In this document: positions 1 through 46,514 of the stretch, piece by piece
Position numbering within the stretch: position 1 is the stretch's first letter
Layout of the letters: each line of letters starts with the position of its first letter
From: Clostridia bacterium
GTDB taxonomy: Bacteria > Bacillota > Clostridia > Oscillospirales > Acutalibacteraceae
Assembly (NCBI GenBank): GCA_017434855.1
Contig: JAFRUA010000030.1
Location: 62,001 to 126,000, forward strand
Direction of reading: 5' to 3'
Length of the DNA: 64,000 nt
Position numbers and translations under genes: made by a program
The notes under the pieces: model-generated
What the model saw: the letters and a program-made list of their open reading frames with translations, nothing else
Database searches by the model: none
What the model was told of the DNA's origin: nothing

Positions 1-3000
1 GCGTCCAACCTCACCACCGTGAACTGGACCAGCCTGAAGGGTGGCAACCGCTATGTCCCGATGGCGAACTCTCCGCTTGACGCGCTGTTCACCGGCCTTG
101 GCCAGTTGCTCTTCGGAGACACGAACGCGGGCGTCACGGCGCTGCTTGACAAGCCGATCACCGTGTTGGCGTCCGTTCTGCCGAACGTGTGCTACTTCTT
201 GTATGAGTACAACAGCGACGGCACGATGACCAACAACCTGTCCATCGCGGTGCAGAACCTGATCGCTCCGGTGCTTCAGCTGCTCAAGATCGTGGACCCG
301 GTGCTGGAACGCATCATCGCGCTCGACATCGAGGGCCTGCTCGACAAGTACCTTGACATTGAAACGCTGCTGAACGACCTGATCTCCCGCCTGATCAGCG
401 GCACGGAAGAGAACGCGTATTCGACCTATATTGATACGCTCGACTTTGCTGCACTGGCGGCCGACGGCTCCGAATATGCACAGACGCTGCCGACGAAGCG
501 TTATAAGGGCACCAGCAGCACGAGCGAAGTGTTCACCTACTTCACGGCCACCCCGGGCCAGCTGCTGATTACCTTGCTGCGCCAGGTGCTGACGCCCGAA
601 CTGGTGATCTTCCTGGGCGACATGATCATGGGCATCTTTGAGAACATGGGGGTCCAGACAGCCTATGACGTGGAATCCAACGAACGTATCCAGGGTATCG
701 TCACCAACATCGTCAACAACCTCAACACCCTTGCCACCGCGGCGGAGGGCGCAGACCACAACTATTCCGCCAAGCGCGTGGATATCCTCACCGGTCTCAT
801 CATCGACCTGCTGACCGAGTACAGCCCGGACGGCACCGAGTACTACTTCTATGAGTACATGAACAAGGTCGACAGCGAGATCACGACGACCATGCAGTCT
901 GACGCGTGGAAGGATTATTACATTGAGAGCGACGGCTATGATTGGGACAGCGTCGATGTGGACGAACACGGCGACAAGCTGTTCACCAGAGCCGAAGTGG
1001 AAGATGCGATCGCCAACCTCGACTACGTCATTCAGAAGGCGCTGCCCGATATCCTGGCTGCACTGTATGAAGAAGGCATGCTGTCGCTGAACATGGTGGA
1101 AGGCGTCATGGACTATACCAGCGGTTCCGGTTTCTGGGAGCTGGTCAAAGGCCTTCTTTCCACAAACCTGCTGACGGATGACTTCATCAACATGGTCGCC
1201 AACGCCCTGTTTGGCCTGATCGGCGGTTCCGGCGGCACGGTCGACGCCGTGATGAACATCCTGACTTCTGCGGGCATCGACTTTACCGCGAAGCACTTCT
1301 ATCAGATCGCGCCGAACACGGGTCTTGGCTCCTACATGCGCTACGGCTTTGACCCGAACTCCATCGACGCCGAGGCTGGCACCGCCCGGATCGCCGGTGA
1401 GACCGTCGAATTCGGTTGGGCCCAGATCATCGAGAACCACTATAAAGACGGCGACGGCAACATCAACTGGAAGTATGAGACCTATGAAGACAGCGATTTG
1501 CTGAAGCCCGACGACGAAGGCCATCCGGTCAAACTGACCGAAAAAGAAAAGGACGACGAGGGCCACGAAATCGACAAGCTTGCCTACAACGAAGCAACCG
1601 GCCAATATGAGCCTGTTTATGCGCGTTCGCTGACCGCGTCTGAATATCCGCGTGTCAAAGACGGCAGCCAGTACGTCTATGAATACAAGAACAAAGACGG
1701 CGAAACCGTCGAGTTCAAGTCCGAATACAGCTTCCTGAAGGCAATCCTGATCCTGAAGAATTCTGACGGTGAAGAATACGGCGACCCGATCATCTGCCCG
1801 CCGTCTGAGGACCTGATCGATGCAGGCAACACCTACAAGCTGACCGCGAAGGTCAACAAGGAAGCCACGCCGCTTTGGACCTGGAACCTTGACAGCATTG
1901 AAGGTGCAACCAGCGCCGAAACATTCATCGCGAAGAAGAACGCGTTCCTGGATGACATCTGGCTGATGATCTCCCCGCTGGACGACGTCTTCAAGGCCCT
2001 GTTCGCGGGCAAAGACCTGAAGCTGTTCAAAGATGAAAACGATGTCGGCGCCCTGAACATCAAGGGTGTGGACGGTTACGCGAACGTCTTTGTGCCGCTG
2101 TTCAACGCGCTCGGTCTGGAACAGATCCTGAACTACATCAGCACCAACCCGGCAGATACGTCCAATCCGACCGGTGAAACAATGCTGCAGTACATCAACC
2201 GTGTGTCCGGCAGAGCCGGCACCGATGACGAGATTCAGCCCGACCTGCTGACAGCCGCCGAGTATCAGGCGATGATGGAGGAAGAGAACGGCACCGAAAA
2301 GGCCATCAAGTACATCGCGAACGACGTGCTCGGCTTTGTCGAAATCGTTACGACCTTCCCGATCGCGACGCTGACCCAGGCGCTGCCGACCCTTGCCTAC
2401 TTCATCTATGGCGACGGTCTGACCACGCTGGTGCAGAACCTGCTGATCCCGGTCACCACCCTGACGAATATCATCGGCTGGAAGACCGACCCGGCTGCGG
2501 GCATCATCACCGTGAAGGTTGATGAGATCCTTGCCGCCGTGCTTGAAGGCGTCATCTCCATGCTTCGTAATGACGAGCAGGTCAACTGGTCGGCGATCCA
2601 GAACCTGCTGCAGGCAAAGATCGAATACAACGAAGAAACCGGCCAAATCGAAACGCACTACATCGACGATTTCAAACCGAACCTTACGAAGACCCTGCTT
2701 CGCCTGCTCGGCTCGCTCGAATTTGACCTGTCCGGTATTCTGAAGCCGAAAGATGCGCCCGAAGACGACGGCGTGGACTATATGCACAGCGTTGTCTTCT
2801 TCCTTGACAAGGATGCAGAGAACGCAGCAAAAGCGAAACTTGCTGAAGCTGCGGCTGCAACGAATCCTGCCGACGCCACCACGCTGAAGGACGAAGCGGC
2901 TGAGCTCCGTGCGAACGCGCTGCGTGAATTCATCAAGAGCCTTGCCGCCATCGGCGACTCCTATGGATATCTCGGCGAAAGCTGCCCGGTGAACTCCGTT

Positions 3001-6000
3001 GCGGGCTACAGCGGCAATGTGAGCGACCTTGTCAAGATTGACGCACAGGGCCAGGTCACCGTCAGCAAGGCGGAAGTCCTGATGTTCCTTGTGGACTTCA
3101 TCAAGCAGAACACCACCATCATGGAAATGGTCGGCAACCTGCTCGGTTATGACCTGACAGATGACAACAAGGACGAGATCCTTGACGAAGTGCTCACCAA
3201 TGTCTTCAATAATCCGGAAGCGCTGGTTGACCTGATCGTTGACCTGCTCACCGGCTACAAAACGATCGACTCGACGCCGTTCCAGCTGAAGAAGATCGAG
3301 AACGAAACGCACTATGAATTCTATGAGGATCGCGGTTACTCGACCCTTGACGACGTCCGCGAACACAACAGCACCGCATCGGCTGACGAGCAGGTGTCTG
3401 AGATTTCCCGCGTCAAGACCGCGGCGGCGATCGATAACCTGGACGGCCTGGTCGGCACGATCCTGAATCTGCTGAAAGAGCAGCTGGCGGGCGACGGCGG
3501 CTTCCTGACCGCGCTTGGCCTGACGGAAGACGACGACCTGACCATCCGCAGCATCATTGACAAGGCGCTTGAGAGAAAGCTCCTGACCGACGACATGATC
3601 AACTCGCTGGTCGGCATGCTGATCAACGTGCTTGGCAACGGCAAATCCACCAACATCATCAACGTCATCGTCAAGATTCTTGACGGCGCAGGCTTTAGCT
3701 TCACGCCGCAAACCGTGAAGGCGAACGTTTCGCAGCTTGCGGGCACCATCGGTACCCACAAGAAGTGGAACCAGGTTGCCGCAGAGAACCTTGAATATGC
3801 TTATGAGTATCTCACCGGTGAAACGACCGACGAGGGCGAGGCAGTGACCGCGAAGGTCTACAGCCCGACCGCCGGCCTGACCAGCGCGCTCATCGACCTT
3901 GCCACCGGCAAGATCACCACCGACACGGAAGTCGGCGTTGAAAAGGCGCTGACCCCGGTCTGGGTCCAGGTGGAAAAGAAAGATCCTGTGACCGGCGAAG
4001 TCATCCTTGACGAAGAAGGCAACCCCGTGATGGAAGACAGCGACGTTCAGGAACAGGCCGTTCAGCTGCACCTGACCTGGGGCGTTGAAAGCCTTGACGA
4101 TCTGGTTGACCTTGTGTGGAACCTGATCTCTCCGCTGCACGCCGTGTTTGAGCTGCTCTTCACGGGCAAAGAACTCGTCATCTATGACAAGATCAAGATC
4201 GAGGGTCTGGAAGGCTATCAGACGGTCATCTATCCGCTGCTGAAGTCCCTTGCCATCGACAAGCTCTATGAAGCTGACGCAGCGAAGGAAAAGACCAATG
4301 ACCTCACGAAGCCGTATCTTGCGGGCGGCATTCTGACGCCGCAGGCTTTCATGCAGGCGGTCTATGGCTCCACGGCCACCTTCGCGACCGATGCCGACGA
4401 TACCTATTATCTGGTATCCGATTCCGACCTGACAGACAACAACTACAAACTGATCCTGACCACGCTGATCGATGCGATCGAAGCGCTGATCTATTCGCTG
4501 GCGGATCGCCCGATGAACACGCTGCTGACGATCCTGCCGTATCTGGCACGCTTCCTGATCAGCGACGGTGCAGATGTCCTGATCGAAAACCTGCTGGTTC
4601 CGGTGACCACGATCACCAACAAGATCAAGGCCATCTATGAGATCGATATCCTCGGCATGCTGAAGAAGCTGCTGGTTGAGGCGGTTGAAAAGTCGAACGA
4701 AGACGTCGGCGCCAAGACCACCAGCTACACCAACCCGGCGAAGCAGGCCTCCGCGCGTGCGGCTCTGGCTGCCTATCTCCTGCGTGAGATCAACGAGGCA
4801 ACCGGTGAAACCGGCGCGGCCGGCAATGCCGACATGAACGACTTCCTGGTCCGCGCCTTTGCGGTCGGCAACGACGGCACCTCCACATCGTCCCTGGGCG
4901 GCGACACATCGGCCTATGCCGAATACACGATCCTTGACATCCTGTGGCAGGTCATCGACAACATCTCGTTTGATGTTGGCGAAGGCGGCAACAAGCAGAC
5001 CATCCAGCTGAGAAGCATCCTGTCTGACACCATCTTTGACGATCTGGCGTCCTGCGCCTGGATCTACAGCGAAGATTCCGCGCAGCAGAGCGTGATCGCT
5101 GACGTCGAGTTCACTGTGACCACGCTGTCCACCGGCACGCTGAAGAGAATCGGCGGCAACGCGTACAGAACGCGCGAAGTGAACGATACGGATCTCGACT
5201 ATGTGGTTGACCGCGAGACGGTTCTGCTTGAGGTCCTCGACAAGCTGCTCTTCACGCCGGGTATCCGCAACCTGCTGGTCACCCTGCTGAACATCAACTA
5301 TGAGAACCTTGGTCTCGACAAGGAATACGGCGATCATTTCGACATCGAAAACGCCAACACCGACTATCTGCTTGCAGTTCTGCTGTACTCCATCTTTGAG
5401 AATCAGGAGCCGCTTGAGCGTCTGCTCATCGACCTGCTGTCCTGGTATCAGGTGAAGTATCAGGCGAAGGTCGTCCGCGACACGCCGGAGCAGTACGACG
5501 AGCTGGATGCTGCCGCAGCCATCGACTATGAGGCTGCCGAGGTCAACAAAGAACAGCTTGAACAACTGCCCGCAAAGATCGACAAACTTGTTGGCACGAT
5601 CATCCCGGCCGTGATCGGCTTCCTGCCGGAAGGCGCACTGGGCGGCCTGACGATCGAAGGCAACACAACCGAAGCGATCATTGAAAACCTGGTCGTCGGC
5701 TTCTTCAAGGATACCCCGGCGAGCGAAGACGCCGAGGCGAAAGACGGCCTTGCCACCACGCTGATGGCAACGCTCATCAGCCTGCTTGGCGGCAACGAAA
5801 TGGTCGGCAACATCGTTGGCATGCTGCCTGATCTGATCGACGGCGTTGACCTGACGCTGAAGGCGTTCATGGACAGTTCCACGGCGATCAACACCTACTT
5901 CGCACCGTATGATGCGGACGGCGACGGCAAGGTCACATGGAAAGAAGCCTATGACGGACTCAAGAGCATCCGCACTTACAAGGATGAGACGATCCGCGAG

Positions 6001-39762: not shown

Positions 39763-41940
39763 ATGAAGAAAACGAAGCGGATTTTGAGCGTCCTGCTGGC
39801 AGTGGTGATGCTGCTGGCAGTCGTGCCGGTGGGGAATGTCGGCATCACAGCGAGCGCATACAATGTGTCAAGCGCCGTTTCCTATGCAGACGGCCATTGG
39901 AATGATGGTGTAGGTCTCTGCGCGGAATTTGTTGCCAAATGTTTAAATGCAGGTGGTGTCTCGATTCCAAACAGCGCATCCTACTACAGCAATTCAAAAC
40001 AATCCTATCAAAACAACAGCGGCACATTGGGGGCATATACTAATCCGTATACCTGCTCTGCTGCACAGCTTCTTTGGTTTTCGGATCAGGGCTATCAGAT
40101 CATTACAAATCCATCTGATTCCGAATTCTCTCTCGGCGATGTTGCGTTTATGCCAAACAGCAACGGATCAAAAGATGGTCACGTAGGAATCATTACACAG
40201 ATTTCAAACGGCGCTCCGTATTATTCTGCGCATAATTATGCGCGGCATAACGCAAGACTTTATAACTGTACATATCTTGTTAAAATGAATGGATCGTCTA
40301 TCCCATCGGACTATATTAACCTCGGCGATGACTTTTGGGCGTATATAATCAAAAGTGATTCTTGGAAACACTTGGAAAGCACAGGGTCAAACGTTCAGTT
40401 GGCGGCGAATGGAAACGATTCAAACAATCCAAAGCAAATCTGGGAATTCATTCGCCAAACAGATGGTTCATATATCATTAAAAATGCTTATAATGATCGA
40501 TGCATTGATGCGGCCGGTTGGGGTACTTCAAACGGAACAAATGTCGGCGTTGTCGGCGCTAACGGTACGTCTGCACAAAAGTGGTACATACTTCAAAATG
40601 GAAGTGGATTTTATATTAGAACCGCGTACTGCGATTTGGTAATGGATGTTACAAGTGATTCAAATGAACCCGGCGCAAATATTGAATTATGGACAAAAAA
40701 TACCAGCAGTGCTCAAAAGTTTAATATTTACGGATTAGCGCAAGATGGTATTAATTATTCAAAACCGGGAAGACCAGCAGGTCCAACACTTTCAATTAAG
40801 ACACTTGGAACAGCTGAAACTACCACGGTATTACAGTGGACTTCATCTCCGTTGAAGAGTTCACGTTTTGACAAACGGTGTTATGATATTAGAATTTGGC
40901 AGGGCACTTCAACCGATGGAGCAAGCTATAAATCTCAATACGGTATGACAGGTACAACTTATGAAGTGAACCTTCCTGCGGGGACCTATATTGCAAAAGC
41001 TTACGCAATTAACAGCAAGTACTATGAATGGTGGAATGACGGAGCCGCAATTACATTCACTGTAAAAAACTGCACCCATTCTTGGAACAGCGGTACCGTG
41101 ACGACCGCTGCCACCTGCACGACGACGGGCGTCCGCACCTACACCTGCACGGTCTGCGGCGGCACGAAAACAGAAACCATTGCCGCCCTCGGCCACAGCT
41201 ACGGCGCATGGACCAAGCTCAACGACACCCAGCATCAGCGCGTCTGTTCCCGTGACAGCAGCCACGTTGAAAAAGCAAACCACACATGGAACAGCGGTGC
41301 CGTGACAAAAGCCGCAACCTGCAGCACAACCGGCACGAAGACCTACACTTGCTCGGTCTGCAACGGCACAAAGACCGAGACAATTGCGATCAACGCTAAC
41401 AACCACGTCAACACGACCAACGTCTCCGCAACAGCTTCAACCTGCACCGTCAAGGGCTACACTGCCGGCGTGTACTGCAACGACTGCAAGAAGTACATTT
41501 CGGGCCATCAGGAGCAGGCGCTCAACGCCAACAACCACGTTAACACGACCAACGTCGCGGCAACAGCGTCCACCTGCACCGTCAAGGGCTACACCGCAGG
41601 CGTCTACTGCAACGACTGTAAGAAATACATCAGCGGTCATCAGGAGCAGGCGCTTGCCGCGCACACGATCACGGTCATCAACAAGCGTGACGCAACCTAT
41701 GACGCGGAGGGCTACACCGGCGACGACTACTGCACCGTCTGCAAACAAACCATCCACACCGGCACGGCCATTCCGAAGCTGACGCGGCCGACCGACCCGA
41801 CGCCGACCGATCCGACGCCGAGCAACCCGCAGCCCAGCGGCGGCTGCAAATGGTGCGGCGGTAACCATGGCGGCGCGTTCGGCTGGCTGACGAAAATTTT
41901 CCACAATCTCTTCGCGGCGATTTTCGGCGCACGGTATTAA
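39763..41940 (+). CDS. Secreted amidase-like protein with ricin-type lectin and CxxC repeats
   Basis: 725 residues, AGGAGGT upstream of ATG 39763. Signal peptide KKTKRILSVLLAVVMLLAVV ending at ITASA. Residues ~33-190 are a putative Amidase_6-like cysteine domain (GLCAEFVAKCLNAGG with Cys53; GHVGII with His140; SAHN). Residues ~207-326 are a ricin B-type beta-trefoil with QIWEF, AQKWYI and AQKFNI (Q-x-W/F) repeats. Then come a fibronectin-III-like domain (~333-434), four or five CxxC repeats of 45-60 residues (HxW-C-YTCxVC type, ~437-673), a Pro/Thr linker and the tail CKWCGGNHGGAFGWL then TKIFHNLFAAIFGARY. A role in cell wall or glycan hydrolysis is inference. The first two thirds are AT-rich (19 G/C of 60 at 40681-40740), and the last third is GC-rich (43 of 60 at 41101-41160). 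Confidence 0.85.
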   Translation: MKKTKRILSVLLAVVMLLAVVPVGNVGITASAYNVSSAVSYADGHWNDGVGLCAEFVAKCLNAGGVSIPNSASYYSNSKQSYQNNSGTLGAYTNPYTCSAAQLLWFSDQGYQIITNPSDSEFSLGDVAFMPNSNGSKDGHVGIITQISNGAPYYSAHNYARHNARLYNCTYLVKMNGSSIPSDYINLGDDFWAYIIKSDSWKHLESTGSNVQLAANGNDSNNPKQIWEFIRQTDGSYIIKNAYNDRCIDAAGWGTSNGTNVGVVGANGTSAQKWYILQNGSGFYIRTAYCDLVMDVTSDSNEPGANIELWTKNTSSAQKFNIYGLAQDGINYSKPGRPAGPTLSIKTLGTAETTTVLQWTSSPLKSSRFDKRCYDIRIWQGTSTDGASYKSQYGMTGTTYEVNLPAGTYIAKAYAINSKYYEWWNDGAAITFTVKNCTHSWNSGTVTTAATCTTTGVRTYTCTVCGGTKTETIAALGHSYGAWTKLNDTQHQRVCSRDSSHVEKANHTWNSGAVTKAATCSTTGTKTYTCSVCNGTKTETIAINANNHVNTTNVSATASTCTVKGYTAGVYCNDCKKYISGHQEQALNANNHVNTTNVAATASTCTVKGYTAGVYCNDCKKYISGHQEQALAAHTITVINKRDATYDAEGYTGDDYCTVCKQTIHTGTAIPKLTRPTDPTPTDPTPSNPQPSGGCKWCGGNHGGAFGWLTKIFHNLFAAIFGARY

Positions 41941-43411: not shown

Positions 43412-45541
43412 TCAATACCGTGCGCCGAAGATCGCCGCAAACAGGTTGTGGAACAGCTTTACCAGCCAGCCGAACGCGCCGCCGTGATCTTTGCCGCACC
43501 ATTTGCACCCGCCGCTGGGCTGCGGCTGCGGGTCGGTGGGCTTTTCCAGCTTCGGGATCACCGTGCCCGATTTGATCGTCTGCTGACAGGTGGTGCAGTA
43601 CTGGTCGCCGGTGTAACCTTCCGCATCATAGGTCGCATCACGCTGATTGATGACGGTCAGGGTGTGGGCGGCAAGGGGCTGTTCCGCATGGCCGCTGATG
43701 TACTTCTTGCAGTCGTTGCAATACACGCCTGCAGTGTAACCCTTGACCGTGCAGGTGGAAGCGGTCGCGGTGACGTTCGTTGTGTTGACGTGGTTGGATG
43801 CGTTGACGGGGATGGTCTCGGTGTAGCTGTCTCCGCAGGAACAGGTGAAGGTCATGGTTCCAATCGAGGCACAAGTGGCGGCAACGGTAATAGCTGATGA
43901 GTATGTGTGAATATGCACGTTCTCAACAGAAAACGTGCAAATATCACTTTGGAAATCTTCTGAATCATAGTGTGCAATTATATAACACGAATAGTTTCCG
44001 ACATAGGCCGGGGCAGAATCAAACTTTCGGTTATAGGTACTTGTGGGAGAGAATTGGCCTTCAAAGAACAAATTTCCATCTTTATAAATATAGAAATCAA
44101 CACATTTCGCATTGTTAGCGCTAAATGTAAACGTAGCAGTTTCACCAATTTTATATGTATGTTTATTTGCTTTAACGATTGGGCTAACGACATCAAAATC
44201 GTTCCAAGCGCTGGTTTCATCTCCGGTTGAATAGTGTGCGACTATACAATATGAATAGTGACCAGAAGTATACATGACGCGGGAGTAAGTATCTGTTGTT
44301 GAAAACTGACCCTCGAAGTATTTGCTTCCGTCTTTGTAAATATAAAGAATCACACTGTTTGCAAACGGCGCAGAAAAATGCCACGTAGCAGTTTCACCTG
44401 TGCAATATGTTGCTTGTCCGGTTGATGTATATCCCTGAAGTAAACTTACATTACACTCATCCCACGTACTGCTGATGTCTCTGTCGGGATAATGTGCAGT
44501 AATATAATACGCATAATATCCCTCATCCGTCATTTTTCTTGAATACGTTTCTGCTGGTGCAAACCACCCATCAAAATATAAGTTGCCACCTTTATAAATG
44601 TAAAGATGAACACCACTTGCACCATCAGCGTTGAAAGACCATGTGGCAGTCTCGCCGGGTGAATAATGCTTTTTGGTTGCTGTTACCGTTATAGTCGAAG
44701 GATCATAAACATGAATATAAACCCAGTTACCCGTTGTGTCTCCAACATCATTTATTGCGACAACTGTGATGCCGTAGGTTCCGGGTTGACTGAAACTGAT
44801 GGTTTTGCTCAGCGAATCCGACCGTTCATTGATTGTATGCTCTGTGCTTGACCAGCAGGAAATCCAATAATAAGCCGCACGATCAGCAGCAGTCCAAGAT
44901 AATGTTGTTTCTTCACCTACAACTAAATTTGTGTAACCAACAGACACGACCGGCGCAGACGGTGCTTCGGTGTAGGTCGGTGCGGAGTCAACCGTGTCCT
45001 GATATTGAGCGATGTAACCGTATGTTGCCGTTTCATTGCTTGAATCATATAAAGCAAGTTTCAGAGCTGTATCCATTGCGGATTTAGACATGGTTTGATT
45101 CCACATGATTGTGCTGTTTCCATCTGAATTGCAATCTGTATAAGTCAATGTACTGGATGAAACATCAGTGATAAAAATGGTATGGTTCCAATTTCGTCCA
45201 GCGCGACGGAAACGAATCACATCTCCGGGACGAATACTGTCGGCATAAGAATACGTTGAAGTGGCTTTGATTTGCGACCAACCGGTTCCACGGCCGTTTG
45301 CAAAATCATAGCCCCAAACATACTCGGAAATCCAACGTGCATATCCATGGCAGGTAGAACCTTTCGGCCACGATGTTCTCTGGCTTCCCTGCGGATACAT
45401 TGCCCGAACTTCATCCAGTTTTGCATCAAACGCACTGCGGCTGATCGCACTCGCCGTTATGCCGACATTCATCACCGGCAAAACGCAAACCAGCATCACC
45501 ACAGCCACCAGTACCGCGAAAAGTCGTTTTGTTTGTTTCAT
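43412..45541 (-). CDS. Secreted papain-fold-like protein with Ig-like repeats and CxxC tail
   Basis: 709 residues. ATG at 45541 is fixed by AAAGGAG 8 bases upstream. Signal peptide KQTKRLFAVLVAVVMLVCVL ending at ITASA. Residues ~35-180 look like a CHAP/NlpC-type cysteine hydrolase: GSTCHGYARW (Cys64), WNHTIFITDV (His120), TDCNSDG (Asp136/Asn138). Then one Ig/Fn3-like domain (~190-280) and three ~87-residue tandem repeats (~281-545) with the pattern 'GETATWxFxA...LYIYKxGxxYFxGxFxxxxTYSR...YxAHY'. These are followed by two CxxC repeats and the tail CKWCGKDHGGAFGWL then VKLFHNLFAAIFGARY. The last ~170 residues are nearly the same as in the protein at 39763-41940, but the rest is unrelated and AT-rich. 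Activity is inferred from motif spacing only. Confidence 0.82.
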   Translation of the reverse strand: MKQTKRLFAVLVAVVMLVCVLPVMNVGITASAISRSAFDAKLDEVRAMYPQGSQRTSWPKGSTCHGYARWISEYVWGYDFANGRGTGWSQIKATSTYSYADSIRPGDVIRFRRAGRNWNHTIFITDVSSSTLTYTDCNSDGNSTIMWNQTMSKSAMDTALKLALYDSSNETATYGYIAQYQDTVDSAPTYTEAPSAPVVSVGYTNLVVGEETTLSWTAADRAAYYWISCWSSTEHTINERSDSLSKTISFSQPGTYGITVVAINDVGDTTGNWVYIHVYDPSTITVTATKKHYSPGETATWSFNADGASGVHLYIYKGGNLYFDGWFAPAETYSRKMTDEGYYAYYITAHYPDRDISSTWDECNVSLLQGYTSTGQATYCTGETATWHFSAPFANSVILYIYKDGSKYFEGQFSTTDTYSRVMYTSGHYSYCIVAHYSTGDETSAWNDFDVVSPIVKANKHTYKIGETATFTFSANNAKCVDFYIYKDGNLFFEGQFSPTSTYNRKFDSAPAYVGNYSCYIIAHYDSEDFQSDICTFSVENVHIHTYSSAITVAATCASIGTMTFTCSCGDSYTETIPVNASNHVNTTNVTATASTCTVKGYTAGVYCNDCKKYISGHAEQPLAAHTLTVINQRDATYDAEGYTGDQYCTTCQQTIKSGTVIPKLEKPTDPQPQPSGGCKWCGKDHGGAFGWLVKLFHNLFAAIFGARY

Positions 45542-45563
45542 GTTGTTGTCTCCTTTCTTGTTT

Positions 45564-45741
45564 GAAAAAATAAAAAATGCGCCCAAAACGGACGCATAAA
45601 AAATGCCGTCCATTTTGTCGCCAAACAAAACGCTTTTTATTCATCTGTAAAGAGAACAAGAAGAACAGGACGCACTTTTTTTGAAGTGAGTCTTCTTGTT
45701 CTAAAACATATACAGCGGTCATTGATCGCGTTTTGTTTGGC
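45564..45741 (-). promoter_or_regulatory. Leader RNA with nested stems and terminator/antiterminator pair
   Basis: The predicted transcript starts near 45741. Its 5' end GCCAAACAAAACGC (45741-45728) pairs perfectly with GCGTTTTGTTTGGC (45633-45620), enclosing a second perfect 12-bp stem (AGAACAAGAAGA, 45702-45691, with 45664-45653). Next, AAAATGGACG (45616-45607) can pair with CGTCCGTTTT (45594-45585). That excludes the terminator stem ATGCGTCC / GGGCGCAT (45597-45590 with 45584-45577), which is followed by TTTTTTATTTTTT. The start codon is only 23 bases beyond the T run, so no promoter fits between them. This is the layout of a transcription attenuator. I recognise no known riboswitch class. 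Confidence 0.68.
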
Positions 45742-45747
45742 ATCTAC

Positions 45748-45776
45748 ATCATAACACACCCTTCAAAAAATTGCAA
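45748..45776 (-). promoter_or_regulatory. Promoter for the leader and the multi-Ig secreted gene
   Basis: Minus strand -35 TTGCAA (45776-45771), 17-bp spacer, -10 TATGAT (45753-45748). The predicted start is at the first bases of the closing stem of the leader. Confidence 0.72.
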
Positions 45777-45852: not shown

Positions 45853-46482
45853 TTATTTCGTGCCGAAGATGCGGTCGCCCGCGTCGCCCAGGCCGGGCAC
45901 GATATAACCCTTTTCGTTCAGGTGATCGTCCAGTGCGGCGCAGAACACCGGCACGTCCGGGTGCGCCTTGGAAAACGCCTCGATGCCCTCCGGCGCGGCG
46001 ATCAGGCACATGAAGCGGATGGACCGCGGGCCGCGCGCCTTGATCTGCTTCACCGCGTCGATGGCGGAACCGCCGGTCGCAAGCATCGGGTCCACCACAA
46101 TGACGTCGCGCTTGTCGATGTCCTTCGGCAGCTTGCAGAAATATTCCACCGGCTGCAGGGTTTTTTCGTCGCGATACAGGCCGATGTGGCCGATGCGGGC
46201 AGAGGGGATCATGCGGCTGACGCCGTCCACCATGCCCAGACCGGCGCGCAGGATCGGCACAATGGCCAGCTTTTTGCCGGCCAGATGCTTGACCGTGGTT
46301 TTGCAGATCGGCGTTTCGATCTCCACATCCTCCAGCGGCAGGTCGCGCGTCGCTTCATAGCACATGAGCATCGCGATCTCGGACACCAGCTCGCGAAAAT
46401 CCTTGGAACTGGTGTTTTTGTCACGCAGGATCGACAGCTTGTGCTGGATCAGCGGGTGGTCATAAATCGTTACGTTCTTCAT
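45853..46482 (-). CDS. upp: Uracil phosphoribosyltransferase
   Basis: 209 residues from ATG 46482; a TTG three codons upstream is less likely, and 209 matches the usual Upp length. Family motifs: [26 protein letters not shown] at the start, [12 protein letters not shown], [21 protein letters not shown], PRPP loop [10 protein letters not shown], and the C-terminal [13 protein letters not shown]. It makes UMP from uracil and PRPP for pyrimidine salvage. Single gene, own promoter and terminator. Confidence 0.97.
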
Positions 46483-46514
46483 ATTCTCCAATCCTTTCTT
46501 CGCCTGTTTTTTAT

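Follow-up and report, generated by a model that had tools for sequence, protein, structure and literature searches.

Why should a gene for a secreted protein in this bacterium be preceded by about 200 nt of highly foldable sequence, and could this leader decide whether the gene is transcribed? A sequence-only reading of the window (the whole 64,000-nt stretch of DNA analysed here) had proposed a new cis-regulatory leader whose closing stem, antiterminator and terminator are mutually coupled. Our comparative analysis makes it likely that the leader is one of a new family of attenuators that control transcription in cis and are candidate riboswitches. These would act as promoter-plus-leader units in front of surface, secreted and some other genes, and would switch by exchange of a single strand, X, between two partners.

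Layout of the leader in the window

All elements of the unit lie on the minus strand. The promoter named in the sequence-only reading, TTGCAA-N17-TATGAT, is present at 45776-45748 and carries an extended -10 TG. Six nucleotides after the -10 begins the sequence GCCAAAC, and the transcription start would lie at its first base, 45741, 200 nt 5' of the ATG at 45541. This base opens the 14-bp closing stem P1 (5' strand 45728-45741, 3' strand 45620-45633), which is defined by fold and covariation. Within P1, the fold places the 10-bp stem P3 (45693-45702 with 45662-45653), topped by the apical hairpin P4 at 45669-45692 (GAC-U-CACUU / AAGUG-C-GUC; fold and alignment). A 3' bulge at 45663-45668 separates P4 from P3. 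The minimum-energy fold of the leader, at -61.7 kcal/mol, contains both P1 and P3, the two helices that the sequence-only reading had described as a terminal stem and an inner hairpin. None of 200 dinucleotide shuffles equals this stability (z -6.0).

Downstream of P1 follow, in order, GACA, strand X, the terminator, a T-rich tract, the Shine-Dalgarno (SD) sequence AAAGGAG (45550-45556) and the ATG. The intrinsic terminator hairpin occupies 45577-45597, next to the T-rich tract at 45576-45565, and the competing antiterminator hairpin, 45617-45603 with 45597-45584, shares its 5' arm. Both hairpins had been anticipated; the terminator is identified by sequence and covariation, the antiterminator by fold and covariation. 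The open reading frame (ORF) that follows (43412-45541) codes for a protein of 709 aa that begins with a signal-peptide-like sequence and ends in a Cys-rich tag, which supports the view that the regulated gene is secreted and non-metabolic. On the upstream side lies a gene for uracil phosphoribosyltransferase (45853-46491). Positions 1-161 of our full-length covariance model, R2, match the leader at 45569-45741 with 113.9 bits, a score that includes the window copy's own contribution as one of the 20 sequences from which R2 was built. R2 matches no second copy in the window, apart from a weak echo of this one on the plus strand that reflects its palindromic form.

A recurring family with covarying helices

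The leader is one of ten matches to the covariance model in its own genome. A BLAST search of that genome found four good copies besides the window one; three share its architecture with different stem sequences, and the fourth has a longer 5' part. Together with compensatory changes in 97 distinct copies, the ten matches place the leader beyond chance.

To follow the family further, we used two models. R1 covers the 3' two thirds of the leader; it matched 17 of 250 genomes of the organism's own taxonomic family and gave 24 matches in other genomes. The R1 matches L166 and L180, which do not have the GTTTGGC end, were discarded by eye as chance. R2 combines 16 of the 24 foreign R1 matches with the copy neighbouring L167 and three own-genome copies (omitted were L157, L160, L163, L166, L167 itself, L174, L176 and L180). 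At E values up to 0.001, R2 matched 151 of 398 sampled genomes of the own family, leaving 247 without a match, and 142 of 394 of the own order. At E values up to 0.0001, it matched 86 of 321 genomes of the own class, and in a phylum sample of 398, a few of them of the same class, the own genome was the sole match. These four samples overlap, so the counts are not additive, and copy numbers are minima because 7 to 9 candidates were scored per genome. Even within the own genus, two of the seven genomes shown are without an R2 match. The bacteria that carry the leader probably belong to one class, Clostridia.

A simple sequence pattern did not serve as a detector. Within the own taxonomic family, exact matches to GTTTGGCGACANNNNGGACG were confined to the own genome, so the pattern is too narrow there. 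With one mismatch it occurred at 19 places in 18 other genomes, and a reversed control pattern matched at least as many genomes. Across genome contigs the pattern is too loose: among the matches listed, one was a recognised homologue (L077, from a Ruminococcaceae bacterium metagenome-assembled genome, a name now placed in Oscillospiraceae, class Clostridia).

Two patterns found seven loci in viral contigs, none of which the model matched at E 0.001, and a search of plasmids with one leader gave no match. The same kind of search of phage records gave two matches, L308 (MT837627) and L309 (MT835845), both confirmed by the model. L309 is labelled Bacteriophage sp.; its ORF translations look to us like ordinary chromosomal genes, and the record is probably bacterial DNA. 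On L308, a 6.5-kb human-faecal record, the leader copy lies at 4112-4270, downstream of what we take to be an integrase-like ORF and upstream of presumed zinc-ribbon-like and lipoprotein-like ORFs. We make no claim of a phage origin.

For covariation analysis, cmsearch on 86 loci gave 101 matches, or 97 distinct copies, a set biased toward high scores and toward arrays that were fetched deliberately. In these copies the eight P1 pairs are paired in 99.9% of cells, and seven of the eight are doubly changed, with kinship ignored and with copies found by a model that itself includes P1. Pair 3, for example, occurs as GC in 45 copies, CG in 43, AU in 6, UA in 2 and UG in 1. The 6-bp base of the terminator is 98.1% paired, with five of six pairs doubly changed (kinship again ignored), and P1 plus terminator give a covariation score of 0.368 versus at most 0.092 when one strand is slid. 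In alignment A7, the 20/20 result is not fully independent, because its 5' ends were chosen with previously seen words.

The antiterminator gives a more modest signal. It is 82.7% paired, and, with kinship ignored, its covariation score of 0.327 lies above all 500 shuffles (0.236) and above every slid version (at most 0.100); its doubly changed pairs and pair types are not above the shuffles, 307 and 46 of 500 being as high. Mean hairpin energies are -12.5 kcal/mol for the antiterminator and -13.5 kcal/mol for the terminator, and the antiterminator is the more stable hairpin in only 42 of 97 copies. In the sensor region, P3 varies in sequence while the short motifs AAUA and CUCU and the P4 loop are kept across copies; the lengths of the sensor arms are not correlated (r 0.21).

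The promoter-like site also keeps a fixed distance. In 94 of 97 copies a -10-like hexamer (NANNNT) lies exactly 6 nt 5' of P1; the TG of an extended -10 is present in 91, and the -35 place starts with TTG in 85. Another copy follows within 600 nt in 14 of 97, which is no frequency because several arrays were fetched on purpose, and each of the 14 downstream array copies carries its own promoter-like site. Three or four promoter-leader-terminator units stand in tandem at L244 3367-4336 (four copies), L245 3907-4742 and L246 4047-4718. At L168, two divergent leaders stand back to back, 925-1095 (-) and 1463-1619 (+), and behind each lies an ORF whose product has membrane segments.

Strand X and its two partners

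Two regions are complementary to strand X (GGACG-G-CAUUUUUU, 45598-45611): the terminator's 5' arm, and the P4 3' strand together with the first part of the bulge. The latter partner, assigned like X from pairing energies, spans the P4 loop, the P4 3' strand and the first bulge base at 45668-45681 (AAAAAAGUGCGUCC), and we propose it as a toehold. In the consensus, GGAGC-U-AUGCGUUUUU faces AAAAAUGCAU-GCUCU; in the window, GGACG-G-CAUUUUUU faces AAAAAAGUG-CGUCC, each time with one bulged base in X.

For both complementarities, strands of the same copy fit each other better on average than strands of different copies. X pairs with its own P4 strand and bulge at a mean of -14.9 kcal/mol versus -11.0 for swapped strands, and with its own terminator region at -15.2 versus -11.7; in neither case was any of 2000 permutations as good, with kinship ignored. 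Letter-shuffled X gives -5.5 and -7.3 kcal/mol, respectively. In the median case, a copy's own strand is outpaired by those of 13% of the other copies at P4 and of 9% at the terminator. The toehold words change together: GCTCT/GGAGC is found in 27 of the 97 copies, ACTCT/GGAGT in 6, TCTCT/TGAGA in 2 and GCTTC/GAAGC in 1, with some aligned words mismatched (for example TCTCT/GGAGT in 3). By columns, and with kinship ignored, the toehold is modest. Its covariation score is 0.247 versus 0.180 shuffled and at most 0.144 slid, and pairing holds in 84% of its cells. Shuffles reach the observed number of doubly changed pairs in 143 of 500 cases and that of pair types in 279 of 500, so neither number stands out; these column counts are an underestimate where copies like the window one are offset by 1-2 columns.

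Since own pairs beat swapped ones and toehold words change together, we propose that X exchanges between the terminator arm and P4 in the nascent RNA. Transcription would start at the first base of P1, and P1, P3 and P4 would fold as a sensor. X, made next, would have two mutually exclusive partners. If X pairs with the 5' arm of the terminator, the antiterminator would form and the gene would be on; if X is captured by the P4 3' strand and the adjoining bulge, the latter acting as its toehold, the terminator would form and the gene would be off. The outcome would be set by whatever binds or stabilises P4 and the bulge.

Energies of the window copy point to where this model is most strained. 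The on state is the predicted minimum at -61.7 kcal/mol and the terminator state lies at -58.8, whereas X paired with P4 without a pseudoknot reaches -41.7 kcal/mol. Forcing X onto P4 in this way costs 20 kcal/mol because P1 is lost, so the off state would require either a pseudoknot, in which P1 and the X-P4 pairing coexist, or a shorter or partial contact. Reaching the off state through X-P4 is the weakest step of the proposed switch.

These results revise the coupling put forward in the sequence-only reading. Its structured leader and competing hairpins hold up, and compensatory changes do occur in relatives, mostly in front of exported-protein genes. The route through the closing stem does not: a 6-nt complementarity between the P1 3' strand and the sequence just after it, of the type TTTTGT/ACAAAA, is found in 4 of 97 copies (window included) versus 1.25 expected from shuffles, slightly commoner than chance and not a feature of the family. 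The conserved coupling instead appears to run through the inner hairpin: the antiterminator's 5' strand has its complement in the 3' strand and bulge of that hairpin.

Downstream genes and what the leader may sense

Among the 83 copies that are not followed by another copy, 72 have an SD-bearing ORF within 160 nt (by a loose rule that accepts an SD match from 4 bases upward), and 64 have one within 60 nt of the model end. A crude hydropathy rule assigns 51 of these 72 ORFs to signal-peptide or lipoproteins, 8 to membrane proteins and 13 to others. In the background, made up of 173 further ORFs with at least 100 aa from the same loci and the window, 23 count as exported, 31 as membrane proteins and 119 as others; length limits are not the same for the two sets, and some of the loci are closely related. 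Of the 72 products, the 69 with at least 75 aa, many of them ending at a locus edge, were compared with Pfam. The first 25 of 58 families include BspA-type leucine-rich repeats (12), ricin-type lectin (3), the Listeria-Bacteroides repeat (3), peptidase M23 (2) and CHAP (2), with one each of SLH, collagen, C-type lectin, RsgI and sigma-70 region 2. In two family lists, of 58 and of 203 entries, the first 25 of each show no evident metabolic theme, and the first 25 of the 58 include no PTS family, such as would be expected behind a LicT/SacY-type RAT antiterminator. The target set is not purely exported, as some targets are small proteins without an export signal or a radical SAM maturase.

At eight class-level loci with nine copies, a simple rule gave an ORF for six copies and none for L254, L258 and L261; one of the six, behind the upstream L259 copy, extends through the next copy. 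A small ORF starting MNIK recurs behind the leaders of four different families (L254, L258 and L261, just past the terminator, and L228 at 1680-1910).

In the own genome, six of seven complete exported leader-linked products end in a C-terminal tag, approximately C[PK]WCG..H.G.F..LI..FH.I.A.IFGARY, which may be a sorting or anchoring signal. The window holds it twice, at the end of the downstream gene (43412-43516) and on the plus strand (41836-41937). The own genome has 33 matches to the tag (E below 0.01, any position in the protein) versus ten leader copies. NCBIfam gave no match for the window protein or for its last 96 residues.

The leader is apparently a copy of a large uncatalogued RNA family, in line with the novelty first suggested for it. 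At the gathering cut-off, Rfam 15 found only tRNAs in the window and 20 related loci; permissive scans of the window stretch and six loci gave only sub-cut-off matches, the best inside a leader being Phe_leader with 27.1 of 55 bits. The abstracts and text passages covered by our literature search contained no description of the family. A catalogue of structured RNAs from the human microbiome lists 3161 candidates (PMC8040213) and could include parts of the family in its tables; its passages name none. A catalogue of premature-terminator attenuators, which also describes mobile attenuators tied to transposons, covers the same kind of regulation, and its passages mention no leader family ahead of exported-protein genes (PMC2965389).

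Among known systems, the leader perhaps works like a strand-displacement transcriptional riboswitch. It has a conserved structured domain upstream of a gene, and covariation and energies point to a mutually exclusive terminator/antiterminator platform. As described in the passages on the ZTP (PMC10085676) and purine yxjA (PMC9756952) riboswitches, a nascent strand would pick the helices that decide on the terminator; unlike there, the exchange proposed for this candidate involves a distal hairpin that carries a 3' bulge. The distribution recalls the c-di-GMP riboswitches of Clostridioides difficile and Bacillus, for which the passages describe several leaders per genome, surface-related functions and, in Bacillus, a triple tandem (PMC6200980, PMC4759541). 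In contrast to these, our family has no Rfam riboswitch match, and its tandem copies each have a promoter-like site and a terminator. A trp-type leader peptide is not indicated, as an SD match of 5 or more with a start codon (leader bases 20-130) occurs in 10 of 97 copies.

What, then, would the leader sense, if anything? The same attenuator could have a sensor that binds a protein or another RNA, for instance an RNA-binding antiterminator or terminator protein by which the exported proteins are kept in step. We regard this variant of the preferred explanation, with which its probability overlaps, as possible and somewhat doubtful. The lack of an evident metabolic theme in the Pfam families listed speaks for it, and a variable P3 beside kept AAUA, CUCU and P4 loop would suit a protein-binding RNA, yet kept unpaired positions are equally expected of an aptamer. 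If the signal were instead a small molecule rather than a protein, the family could be an orphan class of riboswitches that respond to a signalling molecule. Such a class would occur in many families of one class (probably Clostridia), would jointly switch scattered surface and secreted proteins by intramolecular toehold exchange, and would have spread as promoter-locked units in tandem arrays of up to four. We put this forward tentatively, as a reading somewhat less likely than not to be right.

Other explanations dispense with the switch. The units could be stand-alone trans-acting small RNAs of about 170 nt with their own promoter and terminator, to which the downstream gene is incidental; the promoter-like sites at fixed distance, also before the 14 downstream array copies, and the copies followed closely by another would fit. 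We consider this improbable, as the unfollowed copies mostly have an SD-bearing ORF close behind (64 of 83 within 60 nt), usually of the exported type, and a stand-alone RNA would need no covarying antiterminator. Equally unlikely is a passive leader, in which a strong promoter, a terminator that leaks at a constant rate and a stabilising stem at the 5' end fix the expression level without sensing. Pairing of the 5' end could shield the RNA, and the mean energies of antiterminator and terminator are close, but the two covarying partners of X and the kept unpaired motifs exceed what a fixed level needs. Finally, P1 might be no RNA stem at all but a DNA inverted repeat, such as belongs to invertible or mobile elements, given the perfect 14-bp repeat in the window, the ten genome copies and the L308 copy near the integrase-like ORF. 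The P1 cells of the 97 copies decide strongly against this, with 735 Watson-Crick pairs, 40 G-U and 1 A-C. G-U and A-C are one mismatch read from opposite DNA strands; a DNA repeat should show both alike, so that 40 versus 1 indicates selection on the RNA of this strand. As the promoter also lies outside the repeat, we give this explanation very little credence.

To our knowledge, little is known about the control of exported proteins in these mostly uncultured bacteria. With a covariance model of the family in hand, regulon maps and ligand screens become possible. Ten leaders in a genome, their tie to exported proteins and the lack of an Rfam match point to an unrecognised shared signal.
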